IMG/VR virus record: IMGVR_UViG_3300035698_004242
Span: 1-20,320 of that record
Length of the DNA stretch: 20,320 nucleotides
Source of the DNA: a virus
Direction: 5' to 3' (one strand)
In this document: positions 5,972 through 19,731 of the stretch, piece after piece
Layout of the letters: each line of letters starts with the position of its first letter
Numbering within the stretch: the stretch's first letter is position 1
Program-made: the position numbers and the translations under genes
The notes under the pieces: model-generated
Seen by the model: the letters and a program-made list of their open reading frames with translations, nothing else
Database searches by the model: none
What the model was told of the DNA's origin: nothing

Positions 5972-6282
5972 ACTCCGTACTCCTTAGTTAATTTCTGCCA
6001 CACTTGATATTCACTCTTACCTTCATACTCAAATTTATATTTATTACTATCATAGTTCCTCTCTACATTGTCCTGATAGAACTCTCCATCAAATTCATTT
6101 TCATGGCCGTAGGTAAGATAGTAAGACCACTTCTTTTGTTTGCAACTATAAATTATATCCCTAACTCTTGCAGGGAAAGAACAGTTCTGTATTTCATGGT
6201 GTAGGTATACTACATCACCAATTCCAAATTTCAACTTCACCGATACAGTTCTAATTGTCTTCTTTCCATCCTTATACTGCAC
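5968..6282 (-). CDS. Hypothetical protein, SH3/KOW-like beta domain
   Basis: 104 residues from a GTG start with AAGGAG eight bases upstream, an arrangement that decides the start. The stretch K-F-G-I-G-D-V-V-Y-L followed by A-R-V-R-D-I-I-Y and W-S-Y-Y-L-T-Y resembles small SH3-like barrels that open with a G-D-x-V turn; the C-terminal third is acidic and aromatic (Y-K-F-E-Y-E-G-K-S-E-Y). No specific family is claimed. It overlaps the end of the methyltransferase gene by 11 bases and the lipoprotein start by ATGA. Confidence 0.72.
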   Translation of the reverse strand: MQYKDGKKTIRTVSVKLKFGIGDVVYLHHEIQNCSFPARVRDIIYSCKQKKWSYYLTYGHENEFDGEFYQDNVERNYDSNKYKFEYEGKSEYQVWQKLTKEYGV

Positions 6283-7219
6283 TTAGTACTCTCCTTACTT
6301 CTTTTGCTAGAGCTCTAGCTACGGTTACACTCCAAGCATTACCTACTACCATGTAGTTAGCTTGGACATTATCACTCAGTTTAAATGAATCTGGAAATCC
6401 TTGTAGTCTCGCACATTCTCTTGGCTTCAACCTACTTATAGTTACACCATTCAAATCATACCATAGTTTGTTTCTACCGGATTCAGTATCAAAACGCTTA
6501 ACTCTTACAGGTTGCTCACTAGCAAGAATAGTGTAAGAAGGCTCCCATGGAAAAACTTTTTCCTTACCTGTCGTACGTTTACGTAACGTCCATTCACTAC
6601 CATTAGTCTCCTCCCATTCATCACCCATTGCACAATCTAACCAACCACTGTACTGGTTACTATAATGATTTACTACTGGTCTACAAAATGAATACTCTAA
6701 GTCCTTTCTCATACCTACGAAGAATAGCCTCTCTCTGCTTTGAGGTAGTCCATAGTTAGTAGAATTTAATCTAAACATATGTACATTATAATCGTTCCAA
6801 CCATACTTGAATACTGTAAAAGCATGGTTAAGGGAATCATCTGCTAGCGTACCTACATTCTCACAGATGAACATCTTTGGTTTAATGTGATGTACAATAT
6901 CTTGCATTGCTTTAACATTCTTTAAGCCTGAAGCATCATGGGTTGAGTTAAAGGCACGAGTTCTAGCATTGCTAAATGATTGGCAAGGAGGTCCACCAAT
7001 TATGATGTCTGGATGTTTGCTCTCAACAGATTTATACTGATTTAACATACCTTTAGTTATTCTCGTTATATCCATACATAGAACAGGCTCATTAAAATTT
7101 AACTCATGTATATCACAACAAGCTTTATTTATATCTGAAGCGAAAATCAATTCAAATCCCTCTTGCCTGAATCCTAGATCAGCTCCACCACATCCAGAGA
7201 ACAATGACATTACCTTCAT
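6272..7219 (-). CDS. DNA cytosine-C5 methyltransferase
   Basis: 315 residues with all key motifs. Motif I is F-S-G-C-G-G-A-D-L-G-F at residues 7-17 (SAM binding). Motif IV is G-P-P-C-Q-S-F near 76, holding the catalytic Cys. Motif VI is E-N-V near 118. Motif VIII is Q-S-R-E-R-L-F-F-V-G near 160. Near the end come R-L-Q-G-F-P and motif X G-N-A-W-S-V-T-V-A. It transfers a methyl group from SAM to carbon 5 of cytosine. The target-recognition part between VIII and IX is short. No restriction enzyme partner is adjacent, so it is an orphan enzyme, probably protecting phage DNA from host restriction. AGGAGGT precedes the ATG, which overlaps the stop of the first tandem small gene. Confidence 0.92.
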   Translation of the reverse strand: MKVMSLFSGCGGADLGFRQEGFELIFASDINKACCDIHELNFNEPVLCMDITRITKGMLNQYKSVESKHPDIIIGGPPCQSFSNARTRAFNSTHDASGLKNVKAMQDIVHHIKPKMFICENVGTLADDSLNHAFTVFKYGWNDYNVHMFRLNSTNYGLPQSRERLFFVGMRKDLEYSFCRPVVNHYSNQYSGWLDCAMGDEWEETNGSEWTLRKRTTGKEKVFPWEPSYTILASEQPVRVKRFDTESGRNKLWYDLNGVTISRLKPRECARLQGFPDSFKLSDNVQANYMVVGNAWSVTVARALAKEVRRVLSAV

Positions 7220-7443
7220 CTCCTACCTCCTCTTGCGTCTATAGCTCTGTCTACCAGTTCTTTCCAATCAGTATTGCTATCTCCTTTCAAGAATAGAAAA
7301 CTTGAAACATCCGTACTCTCAACGTATACTTCTTTTTCTCTTCTCAAGGTACTATCACGAAGATTAGAGTATTTATATTCACAGGTAGTATAAAGATCAG
7401 GAAAAGCTTTTTTAAGTTTCTTTGTTGCTTGTAGAATATTCAT
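7216..7443 (-). CDS. Tandem small paralogue, copy 3 (most diverged)
   Basis: 75 residues, third in order of transcription of three adjacent copies of one gene. The shared plan is an N-terminal amphipathic helix (L-Q-A-T-K-K-L-K-K-A-F-P), a beta-like middle (K-E-V-Y-V) and a conserved end (D-S-N-T-D-W-K-E-L-V-D-R-A-I-D). This copy has the most changes in the middle (Y-S-N-L-R-D-S-T-L-R-R), suggesting it diverged first or is under different selection. No known family. Each copy has GGAGGTAAGAA-type ribosome sites and ATGA overlaps, so they are co-translated with the polymerase before and the methyltransferase after. Confidence 0.8.
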   Translation of the reverse strand: MNILQATKKLKKAFPDLYTTCEYKYSNLRDSTLRREKEVYVESTDVSSFLFLKGDSNTDWKELVDRAIDARGGRR

Positions 7444-7664
7444 TTCTTACCTCCTATTGCGTCTATAGCTCTGTCTACCAGTTCTTTCCAATCAGTATTG
7501 CCATCTCCTTTAGCAAGTATAAGTTTTTCACTGATGTCTGCAACATATACTTTTTTTTCTATTTTCAAAGTACCATTCTCCCGATTCACGTACTCTAGCT
7601 TGCAGGTAGTATAAAGTTCAGGAAAAGCTTTCTTAAGTTTCTTTATTGCTTGTAGGATAGTCAT
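7440..7664 (-). CDS. Tandem small paralogue, copy 2
   Basis: 74 residues, nearly identical to copy 1 in the first 50 positions (M-T-I-L-Q-A-I-K-K-L-K-K-A-F-P) and differing mainly in the middle (E-K-L-I-L-A-K-G-D-G). The ATG overlaps the TGA of copy 1, and GGAGGTAAGAA precedes it. The high nucleotide likeness to copy 1 indicates a recent tandem duplication. The unknown fold is probably a small alpha/beta domain with a buried Trp (T-D-W-K-E-L). Such multi-copy small genes in phages can come from dosage need or escape selection (inference). Confidence 0.82.
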   Translation of the reverse strand: MTILQAIKKLKKAFPELYTTCKLEYVNRENGTLKIEKKVYVADISEKLILAKGDGNTDWKELVDRAIDAIGGKK

Positions 7665-7897
7665 TTCTTACCTCCTCTTGCGTCTATAGCTCTGTCTATA
7701 GCTCTGTCTACCAGTTCTTTCCAATCAGTATTGCTATCTCCTTTCAAGAATATAAGTTTTTTACTGATGTCTGCAACATATACTTCTTTTTCTATCTTCA
7801 AAGTACCATTTTCCCGATTCACGTACTCTAGCTTGCAGATAGTATAAAGTCCAGGAAAAGCTTTCTTAAGTTTCTTTATTGCTTGTAGGATAGTCAT
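7661..7897 (-). CDS. Tandem small paralogue, copy 1 (with duplicated RAID)
   Basis: 78 residues, first of the three copies in transcription order, directly after the DNA polymerase gene (ATGA overlap; GGAG before the start). It is like copy 2 except near the end, where D-R-A-I-D is doubled to D-R-A-I-D-R-A-I-D by a 12-bp in-frame tandem duplication. The extra segment lengthens the final helix by about one turn. The small duplication points to ongoing slippage or recombination in this block. Function unknown. Confidence 0.82.
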   Translation of the reverse strand: MTILQAIKKLKKAFPGLYTICKLEYVNRENGTLKIEKEVYVADISKKLIFLKGDSNTDWKELVDRAIDRAIDARGGKK

Positions 7898-10185
7898 TTC
7901 TTACTCCAATCCAATAGGTTTGTTTTCCAAGTCATACTCATTAGTGGTATGAGTTTTTTCTTTTCTTCTATAAATTCATTTACTGTTTGCTTGACAGCTA
8001 AAGATATCTTCTTAGTAGTCATAGCCATAATCTCATCATGAACATTCATAAGTAACACTTTATACCTCTTGACTCCACATGGTTGGTATTCCCAAATCCT
8101 TGATTGCAACTCTTTAGTGAGTTGACCACCTGGACTTTGTATCTTATGGTTAGTTGCACTCCTCATAATCTGAGATTGTATATTGAATGCAGCTGCGAAT
8201 ATAGATGACATTGCTGCTCCACTACCTGTCTGAACTCTTTCTCTTCTAACTACCTTGATCTTCTTTCCCGCTTCCTTTATATCGTCAGGGAGGTCATTAG
8301 CCAATTCAAACAGAGTCCTGCAAATAGAATACTCAAGAGAAAAATCACGCTTAAAACCAAGAAAGGATTCCACAGCATACTTGGGTTGAACCCATTCAAT
8401 AGGAGAGCCAATATCGCCAAGTTGCCTAAGAGCCATATGATCAGTATACACTCTATCTTGTGCTTCCCTAACTCCTTTATACCTAGAGAAAAACCTCTCA
8501 TTCCCTGCATCAATTTCTTCCTCAGAGAGCCATAAAACTTCACCGAGTTTCTTGTTTTGAGCACCATATAATTTACCAAAGAAAGCGGTCTTACCTCTGC
8601 TGTACCATCCCTTGGGATGACCGGCACCGAACTCTTTGTACTGCATGATTTCGTCGTAAGGTATGTTGTACATAGCCTCTGCGTAGAGGGCATGGATTTT
8701 TTTACCTGATAATAAATCTTTCCTGAGCTCGGGATCGTTGTATTCGGCTTCTGCAATGCCAACTTCAAAACCATCAAAATCACCACCACTGAGAGGAAGA
8801 CCTGGGAAATGAAGCATAAATATCCCACGAATGGTTGGGCTCTTTTTGATACCTTGCGGATTAATAGAGCCTTTAGATGATACGAAAGACTCAGAACCAC
8901 CAGACATACGATTAGACTTAGTGCCGATAACTTTAAAAACAACATGTAACCTCCTAGCTATGATGAGTTTTTCCATTAAGTCGCGTTCTTTATCTAAGTG
9001 ACGCCACTTTAAAACATTTAAACACCTCTCTGTTACAGGCTCTTCAGCCCAATCAGGATCTTTAGTTATACCCTCTAATGTCTCCACTTTTGTATTAGGG
9101 ATAGCCTCGCACTCGAGAGGTGAACATACAGAGTGTAAGTACTTTAGTACCTGCTTTGGAGCATTAAAATTAATATCAGCACCCTCTAGCGACTTCTTAG
9201 TTTTAACCAGGTGATGCTTTGCTTTACCAACATCGATATTAAAACCATGCCAATAATTACAACCCACTGCCCAAGCCAAATCACTGTCACTATCGGGAGT
9301 AGTAAAAACGCTACCGTTGTCTCGAAGGAATTTCTCAACAAGAGGTAGGTAGATAACATCATTTTTCGCATATTCTAATCTTTCTATGTCGTTTGCCCAA
9401 GCCCATATATGTTCTCTAGCCACCTCCATCCATCCATGGTAGAATGGATTGTACTCATATTCTGCAGGCCTTTTTAAAGGCCGAAGCTCATCAAGAGTGA
9501 CAACTTTCTCACCTTTAATGTGCTCCACTATAGCCTTCAGTGCAGCGGTAGGTGAGAACGATAACTTTAAGTTGACAAAATCATTATCCAGTAGTATTGG
9601 ATACGCTTTAGGATCAGATTTAAATTTAGCTAACTCCTCTGGCGTGATCTCTTTACCATTGGCGTGTAGTTGTGATATCTTCCATTCATATCCTTTAGCA
9701 CTTCTACCAAAGTATATTGAAGGGATCTTTACTTTCTTATACAGTACAGCTAGTACCTGTTTCGCTATTGCTCTAGGTACTTTCTTTAGTACTATATCCT
9801 TCTGTCCCATCATCGGTTGGAACGTACCTTTCTTACCAACTATCAGTAGATCTAGAGCATGCTTTGGTTTACAGCAGTAGGTAAACAATCCTTCCTTGCC
9901 GTCCTTAACCCAAGATAATTCAGCATCTCTATATGTTAATATGTCCGGTGTTGCCATAGCCGGCAATTGTTTAAGAGTATTATAAGTTTTGTTTATGTGG
10001 TAAGAATCATGTGACAGATTGAAACCACATATAGTTTCTTCCATTAATAATTCAATAAGATTACAAGTCTCACCTGCAGGCTTATTGAATATACCATGCA
10101 GATTAACTGACTTGTCTTTTCGTCCCCATTGAATCAGAACTGTAGGCCCGTACAGGCCCACAGACTCTGTATCCAAATAAATCAT
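7894..10185 (-). CDS. Family A DNA polymerase with 3'-5' exonuclease domain
   Basis: 763 residues, T7-like size. The DEDD proofreading domain shows Exo I as Y-L-D-T-E-S (D5, E7), Exo II as G-F-N-L-S-H-D (to D60) and Exo III as Y-A-K-N-D near 271. The polymerase domain shows motif A G-G-D-F-D-G-F-E-V-G near 465, motif B R-G-K-T-A-F-F-G-K-L-Y-G near 528 and motif C N-V-H-D-E near 714. Catalytic aspartates are present in A and C, so both activities should work. It copies the phage genome in the cytoplasm. No separate thioredoxin-binding loop can be claimed. GAGGT precedes the ATG, three bases after the zinc-ribbon gene's TAA. Confidence 0.93.
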   Translation of the reverse strand: MIYLDTESVGLYGPTVLIQWGRKDKSVNLHGIFNKPAGETCNLIELLMEETICGFNLSHDSYHINKTYNTLKQLPAMATPDILTYRDAELSWVKDGKEGLFTYCCKPKHALDLLIVGKKGTFQPMMGQKDIVLKKVPRAIAKQVLAVLYKKVKIPSIYFGRSAKGYEWKISQLHANGKEITPEELAKFKSDPKAYPILLDNDFVNLKLSFSPTAALKAIVEHIKGEKVVTLDELRPLKRPAEYEYNPFYHGWMEVAREHIWAWANDIERLEYAKNDVIYLPLVEKFLRDNGSVFTTPDSDSDLAWAVGCNYWHGFNIDVGKAKHHLVKTKKSLEGADINFNAPKQVLKYLHSVCSPLECEAIPNTKVETLEGITKDPDWAEEPVTERCLNVLKWRHLDKERDLMEKLIIARRLHVVFKVIGTKSNRMSGGSESFVSSKGSINPQGIKKSPTIRGIFMLHFPGLPLSGGDFDGFEVGIAEAEYNDPELRKDLLSGKKIHALYAEAMYNIPYDEIMQYKEFGAGHPKGWYSRGKTAFFGKLYGAQNKKLGEVLWLSEEEIDAGNERFFSRYKGVREAQDRVYTDHMALRQLGDIGSPIEWVQPKYAVESFLGFKRDFSLEYSICRTLFELANDLPDDIKEAGKKIKVVRRERVQTGSGAAMSSIFAAAFNIQSQIMRSATNHKIQSPGGQLTKELQSRIWEYQPCGVKRYKVLLMNVHDEIMAMTTKKISLAVKQTVNEFIEEKKKLIPLMSMTWKTNLLDWSKK

Positions 10186-15504: not shown

Positions 15505-15546
15505 GTTTTGGTTTTGGTTTTGGTTTTGGTTTTGGTTTTGGTTTTG
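15505..15546. repeat. Hexanucleotide microsatellite, seven GTTTTG units
   Basis: Seven perfect tandem copies of GTTTTG on the plus strand (CAAAAC on the coding minus strand), filling almost all of the gap between the parB-like stop and the next start. No frame is affected, so copy-number change would alter only the length of the untranslated spacer. Not a telomere: it is internal and short. Confidence 0.95.
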
Positions 15547-15547
15547 G

Positions 15548-16531
15548 TTACGCTGCTTCGATATCATCAAGAGATTTGATACCTGCTTCTTTTAAGAACT
15601 TAACAGCATCAATTTTCTTTTTAGCTTGACTATCAGATTTACGTTTAGCTGCTTGATCTTCTTTAACCTTTTGTTTCTTGTCCCATTCAGTTTTCTGAGC
15701 TGAAACAGCTTTTTCATCGAGAGAAAGAATCTCAAGATAAGCAGCTAGATATCCTTTGTTGAAAGGTGTAGCTTCTTTTTCAAAGATAACTTTAGCTTTC
15801 TCAAAATTCAATTTAACTGTATCTTTACCGACAAACTTCTCAGCAGCAGAAAACTCAGGAGCCTTACCTACATTATCATCACGACGTGCTTTTGCTTGAT
15901 CAGCAAGAGTTTTAGCCACTGAAGCTCCGAATTTTTCACCAGTAAAAGTACAAGCATCTTCGATGTTTTTCTCAATGTCTTCATCTGTTTTTAACTTAGA
16001 CAGTTGAATTGCATTACCCAAAGACATTTTACCTGCTTGAAGAGCTACTTTAGCCAATTCAGGAAGGTTATTAATCTTCAACATTTTAGCAACATACTCA
16101 GTACTTTTAGATACTGCTTTAGCCAACTCTTTCAAGTTAAGACCTTTACCGTACATCAACTTCATAAGAAGTTTTGCATACTGAACAGGTTTGGTTGGGT
16201 CTTGATGTGCATTACCCACAAACATTGCTTCGATAGCACCAATGTCATCAACTTCGCTTACATTAACATTGATCTTCTGGAAGTCAGGATTACCTTCTCT
16301 ACAGAGAAGCATATTTGCAACAGCTCTACGTGAACCATCAAGAACCATAAACTTGTTATCAGGTTTTGGACAAACAGTAAACAGTGAAAGCATACCTTCT
16401 TTAGAGATACTGTCTTTCAAATTAAGAAGTCTTTCCCATGTATCTTTATCTTCTGGGCTTGGAGCAGGTCTGAGTGCAATGTCTTCTGATGGGAAAATAA
16501 GTTGTTTTGGCGAAATTGAAAGTGTTTTCAA
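15548..16531 (-). CDS. ParB-like partition/nuclease protein
   Basis: 327 residues from the TTG that has AAAGGA seven bases upstream; the TTG two codons earlier is only one base from that site, and no ATG exists until residue 47. The N-terminal domain shows L-D-G-S-R-R near residue 65 and the N-A-H-Q-D-P-T-K-P segment near 108, as in ParB/Srx-fold proteins (CTP- or DNA-acting box I and II). It is followed by a helix-turn-helix (L-A-K-A-V-S-K-S-T-E-Y-V-A-K-M-L) near 137-152. The C-terminal half is charged and helical. No ParA is visible. It may partition the element, bind the iteron arrays or act as a regulator; all three are inference. Confidence 0.82.
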   Translation of the reverse strand: MKTLSISPKQLIFPSEDIALRPAPSPEDKDTWERLLNLKDSISKEGMLSLFTVCPKPDNKFMVLDGSRRAVANMLLCREGNPDFQKINVNVSEVDDIGAIEAMFVGNAHQDPTKPVQYAKLLMKLMYGKGLNLKELAKAVSKSTEYVAKMLKINNLPELAKVALQAGKMSLGNAIQLSKLKTDEDIEKNIEDACTFTGEKFGASVAKTLADQAKARRDDNVGKAPEFSAAEKFVGKDTVKLNFEKAKVIFEKEATPFNKGYLAAYLEILSLDEKAVSAQKTEWDKKQKVKEDQAAKRKSDSQAKKKIDAVKFLKEAGIKSLDDIEAA

Positions 16532-16600
16532 TGTCAAGTCCTTTGGTTGTTGGTTGTTAGTTACACAAATTAATTTAGTTTACACTAGGTTTGACTGTCT

Positions 16601-16654
16601 TTAGTAGTCGGGATTCATGTCACTCACCTCCTTTAAATTTGTCTCTTTAAGCAT
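16601..16654 (-). CDS. 17-codon leader ORF before parB
   Basis: The ATG has AGGAGG six bases upstream, the strongest ribosome site on this strand, and the ORF ends in TAA 70 nt before the parB-like start. The peptide is M-L-K-E-T-N-L-K-E-V-S-D-M-N-P-D-Y. Inside it, AAAGGAGG stands eight bases before the in-frame ATG of codon 13, giving a 5-residue alternative. Two excellent sites for such a short product suggest a regulatory leader, or a ribosome-loading site that protects the mRNA. Confidence 0.55.
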   Translation of the reverse strand: MLKETNLKEVSDMNPDY

Positions 16655-16679
16655 TCTCTACCTCCTATTTTATTTAAAC

Positions 16680-16713
16680 TAGCTATTTAAGCGATTAAAC
16701 TACTATACAGCTA
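16680..16713. repeat. 34-bp direct repeat, copy 1
   Basis: Begins TAGCTATTTAAGCGATTA and ends ACTATACAGCTA. It matches the copy at 16804-16837 in all but four positions and includes ATTTAAGCGATTAAA (16685-16699). This copy lies in the untranslated leader of the leftward operon, between its promoter and the leader ORF. Confidence 0.8.
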
Positions 16714-16743
16714 TAAATAACTCTACAAATAATCCTATACTAT

Positions 16744-16772
16744 AATATAGTATATGGCAACTATACAAGCAA
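16744..16772 (-). promoter_or_regulatory. Leftward sigma-70-like promoter with palindromic -10 operator
   Basis: On the minus strand -35 is TTGCTT (16772-16767), the spacer is exactly 17 bases and -10 is TATATT (16749-16744). The -10 lies inside a perfect 19-bp palindrome with one central base, at 16736-16754 (arms TATACTATA/TATAGTATA). It would start transcription near 16737, serving the leader ORF and the parB train. Spacing and box matches are seen directly; activity is inferred. Confidence 0.7.
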
Positions 16773-16803
16773 ATAAAAAAAAAGAAATAAGTAATATAAT
16801 GTA

Positions 16804-16837
16804 TAGCTATTTAAGCGGTTAAACCACTATATAGCTG
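16804..16837. repeat. 34-bp direct repeat, copy 2
   Basis: Same unit as 16680-16713 with GCGG in place of GCGA. The changes complete an odd-centred dyad, AG-C-GGTT-A-AACC-A-CT, so this copy looks like the better protein-binding site. It lies between the two divergent promoters, upstream of both. Confidence 0.8.
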
Positions 16838-16950
16838 AATACTCTAATACTAACTAATCAATCTTTTAACTCTGCTTATATACTTATTTTATTTTTATTT
16901 TATTCTTTATACTCTAAGAAAAAAGATCAATTAGTTAGTACTAGAGTATT
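16838..16950. repeat. Imperfect 30-bp inverted repeat between the divergent promoters
   Basis: Left arm 16838-16867 (starts AATACTCTAATACTAACTAA) and right arm 16921-16950 agree in 27 of 30 positions after reverse complementing; the spacer is 53 nt of nearly pure A/T. The right arm runs into the -35 box of the rightward promoter. This may be the site of a dimeric regulator or a melting/initiation element of an origin; the sequence alone does not decide. Confidence 0.85.
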
Positions 16951-16977
16951 GACTATACATTGTGCATATACTATATT
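16949..16977 (+). promoter_or_regulatory. Rightward sigma-70-like promoter with palindromic -10 operator
   Basis: -35 is TTGACT (16949-16954), spacer 17 bases, -10 TATATT (16972-16977). The -10 lies in TATACTATATTGTAGTATA (16967-16985), the same 19-mer as in the leftward promoter with one base changed. Transcription would start near 16985 and reach the primase ribosome site about 45 bases later. Strong box matches make it a good promoter candidate. Confidence 0.75.
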
Positions 16978-17026
16978 GTAGTATAGGACAAATTACAGGT
17001 TAAAATAGTGTGGTCACATCTTTTTT

Positions 17027-17032
17027 AGGAGG
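17027..17032 (+). promoter_or_regulatory. Ribosome binding site that points to an AUC start
   Basis: AGGAGG followed by TAGAC and then ATC at 17038. The leader ORF on the other strand has AGGAGG-TAGAGA-ATG, nearly the same design. No ATG, GTG or TTG lies at usable distance, while the primase frame is open from here. See the primase entry. Confidence 0.6.
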
Positions 17033-17103
17033 TAGACATCGGAACACGAAGGTATGAAATAGGTACTTTTCTAAATCTTTTTGCTAAATCTCATTTATCC
17101 AAA

Positions 17104-19731
17104 TTGTATAATCCAGGTATGGAGGTACAAGTCAATGTAGCACAGGATGAAGGTGAGAAGTTGACAGGAGAGTATAAAGGTAAACGATGGAGAGGTTTTA
17201 CTGATAGTAAAACAGTTTGGAAGTCTTTTAGGATACCTTGGAATGCTTATAAAGAACCCAACTATAAAGATAGTAATCTAGCATTCAGTCTAGCTGACCA
17301 TGCAGAAGGTATAGGTCTGACGGGTTGGAATTGGGAAGAACGTAAATCTTACTTCTTTGGTTATGATTTTGATTCAATAGTGAACCATAAGGAAGGATTG
17401 AATGATGAGGAGTTAGAAGATGTATACAACAGAATTAAAGCTATACCTTATGCTACACTTCAATACAGTACATCTGGCCGTGGCTTCCATGTATATATTC
17501 ATTTAGATAAGCCTGTAGACACAGCGAATCATACAGAACATGCCGCTATAGCTAGAAGTATATTAAGTGTATTATCTTTAGATGCAGGTTATAATTTTGC
17601 TAATGCTATAGATGTTTGTGGTATGGTTTTATGGGTGTACCATAGAAAAAGTAAGGGTACACGTGGTTTATCATTGACCCAGAGAGGTGAGTTATTCGAC
17701 CATACACGTATACCAACAAATTGGAAACATCAAATCAATGTAACATCCGGTAGACGTAAGAAGGTAGCTTACGGAGATGAAGAAAATGAAAAGCTATTTA
17801 ATATCATGGCTATGTCAACAAAACAACATGAATTAGATACTTTTCATAGAGAAGTCTTAAATTGGTTTAAAGTGCATACCGGAGATAATAAAGATTCTTG
17901 GTGGGATAATGATTATAATATGTTAGTCTGCCATACTCATGATTTAAAGAGGTGCCATACTGAATTAAATCTTAGAGGATTTTTTGAAACATCTAGCTCA
18001 GGCAGTAGCTCCCAAAACTGTTATGCTTTTCCAGGTGACAATGGTTCATGGGTGATACGTAGACACAATCCAGGTGTGACAGAGAATCCATCTTGGGTTG
18101 TTGATCCATCTGGTTGGACTAGATGTCTGTTTAATGTCAAGGGAGATTTAGAAACCTTTGTCAGGGCATTTGGAGGTATGGAAAATGCTAGAGGTGACTT
18201 TGTATTTAGAACAGTATCAGATGGTTTAAAAGTGCTCGACGCTATGGATATTCAAGAGATAGGTAGAGATCTTAGGTCTGAACCATTATACGAAACACTT
18301 TTAGCTGATCGACAAATGACATTTAAACAGAAAACTGAAGGTAGACTTATCCTGCAGTTTGAAAGGCAAAAGGGATCTAAAGCTGAACCAGAGCTTACAG
18401 CTTTTGTAGCTTCTCCGAATGGCAAGTTATGGGAGAAGGTGATAACTATACCGAGGAGAAAAAAAGATTTTCAGTCCCCAGATCATTTGATTCGGCACGC
18501 TATATCTTTTCAATCTGAGGTTGGTTGGTTTATTCAAACTAGAAAACAATGGGTTATGCAGCCTAGAAAGAATGTCGAGACTGTTTTAGCTGCTCAGCAA
18601 GGTAATATGAATAAGCATGATGTTGAAAGTGTAATGAGTAAATCAATACTTGACCCATGGGAGATAGTGAATGTACCTTTCGCTGGGGAGTATCCAGGTA
18701 ATAGACAGTGGAACAAAGAAGCAGCCGCATTTTCTTGTATTCCAGAAGAAGGAGCTTGTGATACATGGATGAATATACTTGAACATTGTGGCAAAGATTT
18801 GGATATGGCTATAGCTGGAAATACTTGGTGTCAGCAGCATGGTGTGACTGAAGGTAAAGAATATTTATTATTGTGGGTGGCTAGTATGTTTCAAAAGCCT
18901 ACTGAGCCTTTACCTTACCTCTTCTTAGTAGGTCCGCAGAACTCTGGTAAAAGTACATTCCATGAAGCAATAAGTATATTATTGAAGAGTGGTTATGCTA
19001 AAGCAGATGGAGCTTTAGTCGATCAAAGAGGATTTAATAAACAAATATCCAAAGCTGTATTTTGTGTAGTAGAAGAGATAGATTTAGGTAGAAATCAGAT
19101 GGCATTGAATCGTATTAAAGAATGGGTTACTGCTAAATATATAAGTATACATATAAAACTTGTAGATATATATGATATTGTAAATACAACCCATTGGCTA
19201 CAATGTGCTAATGATCCTAATTACTGTCCTGTATTCCCAAATGATACTCGTATAGTTGTAATTAATGTAAACAAATTAGATTCAGATATACCTAAACATA
19301 AACTACTTGATGAACTAGAGAAAGAGAAACGAGCTTTTTTACATCTCTGCTTAACTACAAAACTACCTCCACCACCTGGCCGCTTAGGATTGCCAGTGTT
19401 AAAAACAGGTAGAAAGAAAGAGATGGAATTAATTAACAGAACACCATTAGAACAATTTATGGAAGAGGTATGTTATGAGCGTAAAGGAGCCTTAATTGGT
19501 TTTTCTGAGTTTTATGACAGCTTTTATAAATTCCTTGAACCAGATGATAAGATGATCTGGTCTAAGAAAAGAACTGCTAGACAATTTCCTAAGCTGGGTT
19601 TGATATGTAAAGGTAAGCAGGGATCAATGAACAAAACAATGTGTGGTAATCTCACATTTGATGCGAACTTAAAAGAAGAAGAAGAATGGTTTTGCGCCAG
19701 TGATGGCAGATTAAGGCAGGTAAAGAAATGA
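17104..19731 (+). CDS. Primase-helicase (AEP-type primase plus D5-like SF3 helicase)
   Basis: The position given is the first conventional start (TTG), yielding 875 residues, but the frame is open back to 17029 and the only ribosome site (17027-17032) points to ATC at 17038, which would give 897. The added residues include A-K-S-H-L-S-K-L-Y-N-P-G-M-E, a segment I recall as conserved in related phage proteins. The primase part shows F-G-Y-D-F-D near 85-90 (acidic metal ligands) and S-T-S-G-R-G-F-H-V-Y near 122-131. The helicase part shows Walker A G-P-Q-N-S-G-K-S-T near 610, Walker B V-V-E-E-I-D near 655 and sensor W-L-Q-C-A-N-D-P near 699. It would make primers and unwind the fork. It is followed by DnaQ with an ATGA overlap. 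Confidence 0.88.
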   Translation: MYNPGMEVQVNVAQDEGEKLTGEYKGKRWRGFTDSKTVWKSFRIPWNAYKEPNYKDSNLAFSLADHAEGIGLTGWNWEERKSYFFGYDFDSIVNHKEGLNDEELEDVYNRIKAIPYATLQYSTSGRGFHVYIHLDKPVDTANHTEHAAIARSILSVLSLDAGYNFANAIDVCGMVLWVYHRKSKGTRGLSLTQRGELFDHTRIPTNWKHQINVTSGRRKKVAYGDEENEKLFNIMAMSTKQHELDTFHREVLNWFKVHTGDNKDSWWDNDYNMLVCHTHDLKRCHTELNLRGFFETSSSGSSSQNCYAFPGDNGSWVIRRHNPGVTENPSWVVDPSGWTRCLFNVKGDLETFVRAFGGMENARGDFVFRTVSDGLKVLDAMDIQEIGRDLRSEPLYETLLADRQMTFKQKTEGRLILQFERQKGSKAEPELTAFVASPNGKLWEKVITIPRRKKDFQSPDHLIRHAISFQSEVGWFIQTRKQWVMQPRKNVETVLAAQQGNMNKHDVESVMSKSILDPWEIVNVPFAGEYPGNRQWNKEAAAFSCIPEEGACDTWMNILEHCGKDLDMAIAGNTWCQQHGVTEGKEYLLLWVASMFQKPTEPLPYLFLVGPQNSGKSTFHEAISILLKSGYAKADGALVDQRGFNKQISKAVFCVVEEIDLGRNQMALNRIKEWVTAKYISIHIKLVDIYDIVNTTHWLQCANDPNYCPVFPNDTRIVVINVNKLDSDIPKHKLLDELEKEKRAFLHLCLTTKLPPPPGRLGLPVLKTGRKKEMELINRTPLEQFMEEVCYERKGALIGFSEFYDSFYKFLEPDDKMIWSKKRTARQFPKLGLICKGKQGSMNKTMCGNLTFDANLKEEEEWFCASDGRLRQVKK

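Follow-up and report, generated by a model that had tools for sequence, protein, structure and literature searches.

In lambda-type control regions, divergent early promoters are co-regulated by one dimeric protein at shared dyad operators, beside the replication genes. On the plasmid RK2, the ParB-family protein KorB regulates transcription together with KorA, whose operator covers the -10; at the RK2 promoters under KorA/KorB control, OA lies over the -10 and OB lies near or far (PMC11790492). Bidirectional promoters with symmetric -10 elements give rise to divergent transcription in E. coli (Warman et al., PMC12825309). In a cluster O mycobacteriophage, 17-bp dyad repeats occur in more than 30 copies genome-wide, mostly away from promoters (PMC4351075). 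For mirrored promoters that separate a ParB-like gene from a primase gene, the literature searched offered no precedent.

Such an arrangement is described here for a 20,320-base IMG/VR virus record (the window, meaning the whole stretch of DNA that was analysed), which derives from a phage of a poorly known clade. From its sequence and that of its relatives, we consider it probable that both replication operons are transcribed from mirrored promoters of the sigma70 type and that a stand-alone ParB-like protein autoregulates at 14-bp sites in a KorB-like manner.

Gene context of the proposed control region

Up to about 16.5 kb the genes point leftward and encode the ParB-like protein, then, among others, an SNF2-type helicase and a DNA polymerase; from 17.0 kb on they point rightward and encode a primase-helicase (DUF5906) and an exonuclease. 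Between the ParB-like and primase genes lies a 500-bp gap (16538-17037) with an A+T content of 73%. The genes and the possible leader next to it are as follows.

15548-16537, minus strand: ParB-like protein, encoded by the first large gene in the leftward operon; Pfam HTH_ParB (PF17762) at 39 bits, cut-off 22.6
16601-16654, minus strand: possible 17-codon leader ORF (MLKETNLKEVSDMNPDY) of the leftward operon, read from sequence, with a strong AGGAGGT Shine-Dalgarno; possibly a leader peptide
17038-19731, plus strand: primase-helicase (DUF5906 / D5-like), encoded by the first gene in the rightward operon; the aligned reading frame opens at 17038

At 17038-17040 the window reads ATC after a good Shine-Dalgarno sequence, and relatives have ATG or GTG at the aligned position; either ATC is a rare start, or a later TTG start at 17104 is used, or the letters contain an error. 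Just past the stop of the ParB-like gene, about seven GTTTTG hexamers form an array (15505-15549). Further left, three tandem paralogous small genes (74-78 aa) form a repeat with a 233-bp period (7226-7904), and the protein encoded on the minus strand at 6272-7219 carries a GGPPCQ motif and is probably a C5 cytosine DNA methyltransferase.

Predicted mirrored promoter cores and the palindrome

The first-pass annotation had described divergent promoters with nearly identical cores in opposite orientation, each core containing a palindrome that is perfect on the left and has one mismatch on the right. Every base that it named was found at its position.

16744-16772, minus strand: predicted leftward promoter; -35 TTGCTT (16772-16767), N17, -10 TATATT (16749-16744), the -10 register fitting the family motif
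16949-16977, plus strand: predicted rightward promoter; -35 TTGACT (16949-16954), N17, -10 TATATT (16972-16977), fitting the family motif
16733-16756, minus strand: left 24-bp mirrored promoter core, with a perfect 19-bp palindrome (16736-16754) over the -10
16965-16988, plus strand: right 24-bp mirrored promoter core, with the palindrome (16967-16985, one mismatch) over the -10

The two 24-bp arms are inverted with respect to each other and match in 23 of 24 positions (96% complementary). Treated as a separated inverted pair, they reach a score of 21, whereas 60 dinucleotide shuffles gave 9.6 on average and 13 at most. The 19-bp palindrome itself, TATACTATA-N-TATAGTATA, has with up to three mismatches only one extra match, a shifted overlap at 16731-16749; 0.07 matches are expected. 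A perfect palindrome of such length anywhere in 500 bp has a probability of 0.022 in this A+T-rich region. The mirrored pair is thus a robust fact and the palindrome a weaker one, because the pair lies far outside chance and the palindrome only modestly so.

A consensus promoter scan of 7.3 kb gave 24 matches where 26 are expected, which is not significant. The promoter assignment is better supported by the -10 motif of the family: motif discovery on the right arms of relatives alone placed the TATATT of the window in register with the family -10, and the motif trained on right arms scored above shuffles on left arms. Its advantage on left arms over the inward strand was not significant, and on average the cores scored alike as outward and as inward promoters; the predicted promoter direction therefore rests on individual cases.

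The palindrome might be the mere self-symmetry of an A+T-rich extended -10, each site being a bidirectional promoter of the kind reported by Warman et al., with no repressor bound. A TATAAT on the plus strand of the left core (16741-16746) fits this reading, as do the modest palindrome probability, the non-palindromic promoter cores of most relatives and the documented divergent transcription from symmetric -10 elements in E. coli (PMC12825309). However, it leaves unexplained both the 24-bp match of two distant cores and the mirror symmetry seen in 45 phages, and the near relative L004 has a different palindrome over its -10 boxes. This reading appears rather unlikely.

Recurrence of the mirrored design in relatives

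Primase-based searches yielded about 70 loci, on contigs of metagenomic viruses and on three that belong to metagenome-assembled genomes. Neither primase nor ParB queries found an isolated phage of this clade, the isolate matches being partial and distant. The ParB-like gene is divergent from the primase gene in all loci of the first set with enough upstream sequence; four loci of the second set (L056, L062, L068 and L074) gave no divergent ParB-like match.

Mirror symmetry was scored in 52 intergenic regions by an unbiased test, in which the optimisation of the split was applied equally to the controls. The score exceeded all 60 of a region's own dinucleotide shuffles in 45 of the 52, and the 99th percentile of 1000 coding windows in 43; seven phages showed no mirror signal exceeding all shuffles. 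The records are fragmentary. The 52 phages of the motif statistics are mutually related, so that these counts are not independent trials. When halves were split where the within-phage score is best, the reverse complement of a left arm scored a median of 47 against its own right arm and 18 against the arms of other phages, and the within-phage score topped every cross-comparison in 29 of 37 cases. The mirror design thus recurs in about 45 relatives, with letters that differ from phage to phage, and it usually holds a predicted promoter core.

Arms that match within phages and not between them are what concerted evolution would give, and the identity of the arms might then go back to a recent duplication or to gene conversion acting on the inverted repeats, with no joint regulation. 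This seems improbable. In many phages the identity is concentrated on the -10 region and the downstream dyads, while flanks and spacing diverge, and a mirror kept with unrelated letters in 45 phages requires a cause that maintains it.

The mirrored sequence contains two kinds of element. Element 1 is a predicted promoter core with an outward -10, which recurs in many phages (e.g., TGTGCTATAATAG in L044 and CTGCTATAATAG in L018, whose conserved cores hold outward -10-like hexamers such as TGCTATAAT); in L015 and L019 a CGTATTATA-like element is kept in both arms where much else has diverged. Element 2, which follows each promoter downstream, is a short dyad or repeat, of the GATTTGATTTT type in many phages, TTGTTAAGCTTAACAA in L044 and L038, and AACTTAAGTT in L003. 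L013 and L049 share an identical right-hand -10 (GTATAGTATTATGG) and have wholly different second elements, yet the two arms of each phage carry the same one, as expected if one protein reads both arms. The helix-turn-helix of ParB is unsupported as the reader of these downstream palindromes, being nearly identical in the two phages while the palindromes differ; a protein other than ParB may read them.

The first-pass annotation had also proposed a search of related phages for the same palindrome upstream of parB and primase. The palindrome proved not to be family-wide. L004, a near relative of the window (primase 50%, ParB 37%), has TATATTATATAATATA over the right -10 and TATATTATATAGTA over the left, which is a related form, and L075 keeps GCATATACTATATTA(G)TAGTAT at the left promoter only. 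Of 36 top shared segments, five were palindromic, and those that could be identified were dyads other than the promoter. Since most other promoter cores are not palindromic, the -10 palindrome is regarded as a local feature, clear in the window, related in L004 and one-sided in L075.

A possible replication origin

The sign of the GC skew flips at the gap between the ParB-like and primase genes, and the gap, taken as single-stranded DNA, folds better than shuffles (z -3.9). An Rfam search of the hairpin returned only a microRNA match below threshold (32.8 bits, gathering cut-off 83), which was dropped as an artefact. The centre of the gap holds a further repeat.

16838-16950, no strand: central inverted repeat whose arms (16838-16880 and 16908-16950) match at 79% and enclose a strongly A+T-rich tract; contains the TTAGTTAGT tetranucleotide repeat

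The tetranucleotide form at about 16930 of the window is shorter than the AGTNAGTNAG type of its relatives. Of 54 phages, 11 have repeats of the latter type between their ParB-like and primase genes, at about 40-fold the level of the flanks. Furthermore, DnaA boxes occurred only in L021, L024 and L025, whose corresponding regions contain two to three perfect copies (TGTGGATAA), in a single orientation and nowhere else in their loci, which makes them candidate DnaA-dependent origins.

Together with the skew and the central inverted repeat, these features would suit a region that is mainly a replication origin. The mirrored DNA, together with the A+T-rich centre and the repeats, would then supply initiator sites and an unwinding element for bidirectional replication, with promoters that are incidental or serve origin activation. 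However, the skew is confounded with gene direction, a DnaA box with at most one mismatch was not found in the region of the window or of L004, and the most conserved arm segments often contain a -10-like hexamer. We rate an origin as the main function somewhat short of an even chance. Origin function and the mirrored-promoter reading are compatible and do not exclude each other.

The ParB-like protein and the 14-bp dyad

As candidates for the regulator, the first-pass annotation had named the ParB-like protein and the small zinc-ribbon proteins. Nothing was found in favour of the latter, neither of which has a Pfam or PHROGs match. The ParB-like protein stands as a likely candidate. A better candidate site for it than the -10 palindrome is a 14-bp dyad, YTTAANCGNTTAAR, that had been overlooked. 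The protein matches Spo0J (1vz0) with an E-value of 8e-11 over residues 21-186. As regards an N-terminal domain of the ParB/Spo0J CTPase type, a GSRR box is present, the ENxxR-type box reads GNAHQ, and Pfam gives the helix-turn-helix only.

No ParA partner (AAA_31) was matched in 23 records, which may be fragments, and the control search was positive in 14 of 14 cases; a regulatory rather than a partition role would fit, because ParA was not found in these possibly fragmentary records. A general domain scan gave no KorA-like match among the leftward-operon proteins that were profile-scanned. A single-subunit phage RNA polymerase was considered as the reader of the cores and set aside, with no match in 24 records, a weak negative since the control genomes were silent too.

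The three copies of the dyad in the window are as follows.

16686-16699, no strand: 14-bp dyad TTTAAGCGATTAAA, lying downstream of the leftward promoter and forming the core of the 33-nt repeat at 16680-16712; candidate operator for the ParB-like protein
16810-16823, no strand: 14-bp dyad TTTAAGCGGTTAAA, lying between the promoters and forming the core of the repeat at 16804-16836; second candidate operator
365-378, no strand: third copy of the 14-bp dyad, TTTAAGCGATTAAA, in a repeat-rich non-coding region past the end of the left operon

The 33-nt repeats in the gap are direct. Shuffles of the whole window contain the dyad at a mean of 0.000 exact copies and of 0.34 with one mismatch. The third copy adjoins non-coding tandem arrays at 1-287, past the left operon (a 14-bp unit repeated 10.5 times and a 28-bp unit repeated three times).

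Beyond the window, YTTAANCGNTTAAR occurs three times in the control region of the L004 locus and once in that of L005, and was absent from every other locus scanned. The full records of L004 and L005 each hold one extra, distant copy, so that all three records have the dyad in the replication control region and at one distal hub. The distal copies all lie in non-coding DNA, and in the window and the L004 record this DNA is rich in repeats; the copy of L005 sits ahead of an ORF (725-1330) that, judged by sequence alone, is taken as terminase-like. The pattern rests on three phages and was picked after the window, L004 and L005 had been seen; the distal copies of L004 and L005, found later, are more independent support. 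We infer that YTTAANCGNTTAAR is the likely site of the ParB-like protein, and a better ParB-type candidate than the -10 palindrome, because it is limited to the nearest phages and its form resembles that of known ParB/KorB sites.

Proposed control of both replication operons

The region 16538-17037 would act as the master control region for replication of the phage. Most likely, the two mirror-image promoters fire early from host RNA polymerase, and would thereby drive together the leftward operon, with its ParB-like, SNF2-type helicase, polymerase and other genes, and the rightward operon of primase-helicase and exonuclease. Any protein that binds one promoter core would bind the other, because both cores are the same sequence. 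As the first product of the leftward promoter, the ParB-like protein would most likely bind the 14-bp dyads (TTTAANCGNTTAAA) that lie next to the two promoters. Once bound, it may repress both operons or retune them, the sign of regulation being conjectural, and past the left operon it would act at a second hub.

The palindrome over the -10 would be the site of a second dimeric repressor, in the manner of KorA with KorB, or else an extended, self-symmetric -10. The earlier proposal that one dimer at the cores rules both operons holds in part. That mirrored promoters jointly control the two replication operons is well supported by the divergence of ParB-like and primase genes and the mirror symmetry that recur in the clade; the palindrome as an operator is less certain and could partly be -10 self-symmetry.

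A wider reading can be offered tentatively, and with more doubt than confidence. A widespread clade without isolates in the searched collections would carry two inverted promoter-operator copies that change in concert, one protein setting both operons, perhaps with an origin between them, and its ParB-family protein would be a transcription regulator that works without ParA, both here and at a distant hub. Divergent control regions are known from a few model phages, and about 50 mostly metagenomic relatives appear here to share one design. The phage-specific letters that change together on both sides open the coevolution of operator and regulator to direct testing. In addition, the design points to a role for the stand-alone ParB-like proteins of phages; what these do is generally unclear.

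Comparison with known systems

The lambda-type region resembles the window in having divergent promoters with dyads that adjoin replication genes, whereas in the window a cI/Cro homologue was not identified and the promoter core itself is mirrored. Like the cluster O mycobacteriophage, the window has a ParB-like protein and repeated short dyads, but its dyads number three and lie at control or non-coding regions. The dyad-symmetric -10 of the window could allow transcription both ways, as in the bidirectional promoters of Warman et al.; unlike those, the window has two separate predicted promoters at a distance of about 230 bp, and both have an outward -35 of their own.

The KorA/KorB system of the IncP-1 plasmid RK2 (korABF) shares with the window a ParB-family regulator, here a candidate, a dyad over the -10 along with a separate dyad, and control of replication functions, which is predicted for the window (PMC11790492). 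It differs in that no ParA was found in the 23 phage records and no KorA homologue was identified, and the sites of the window are candidates read from sequence. In contrast to the RK2 promoters, those of the window are mirror copies of each other within one divergent phage region.
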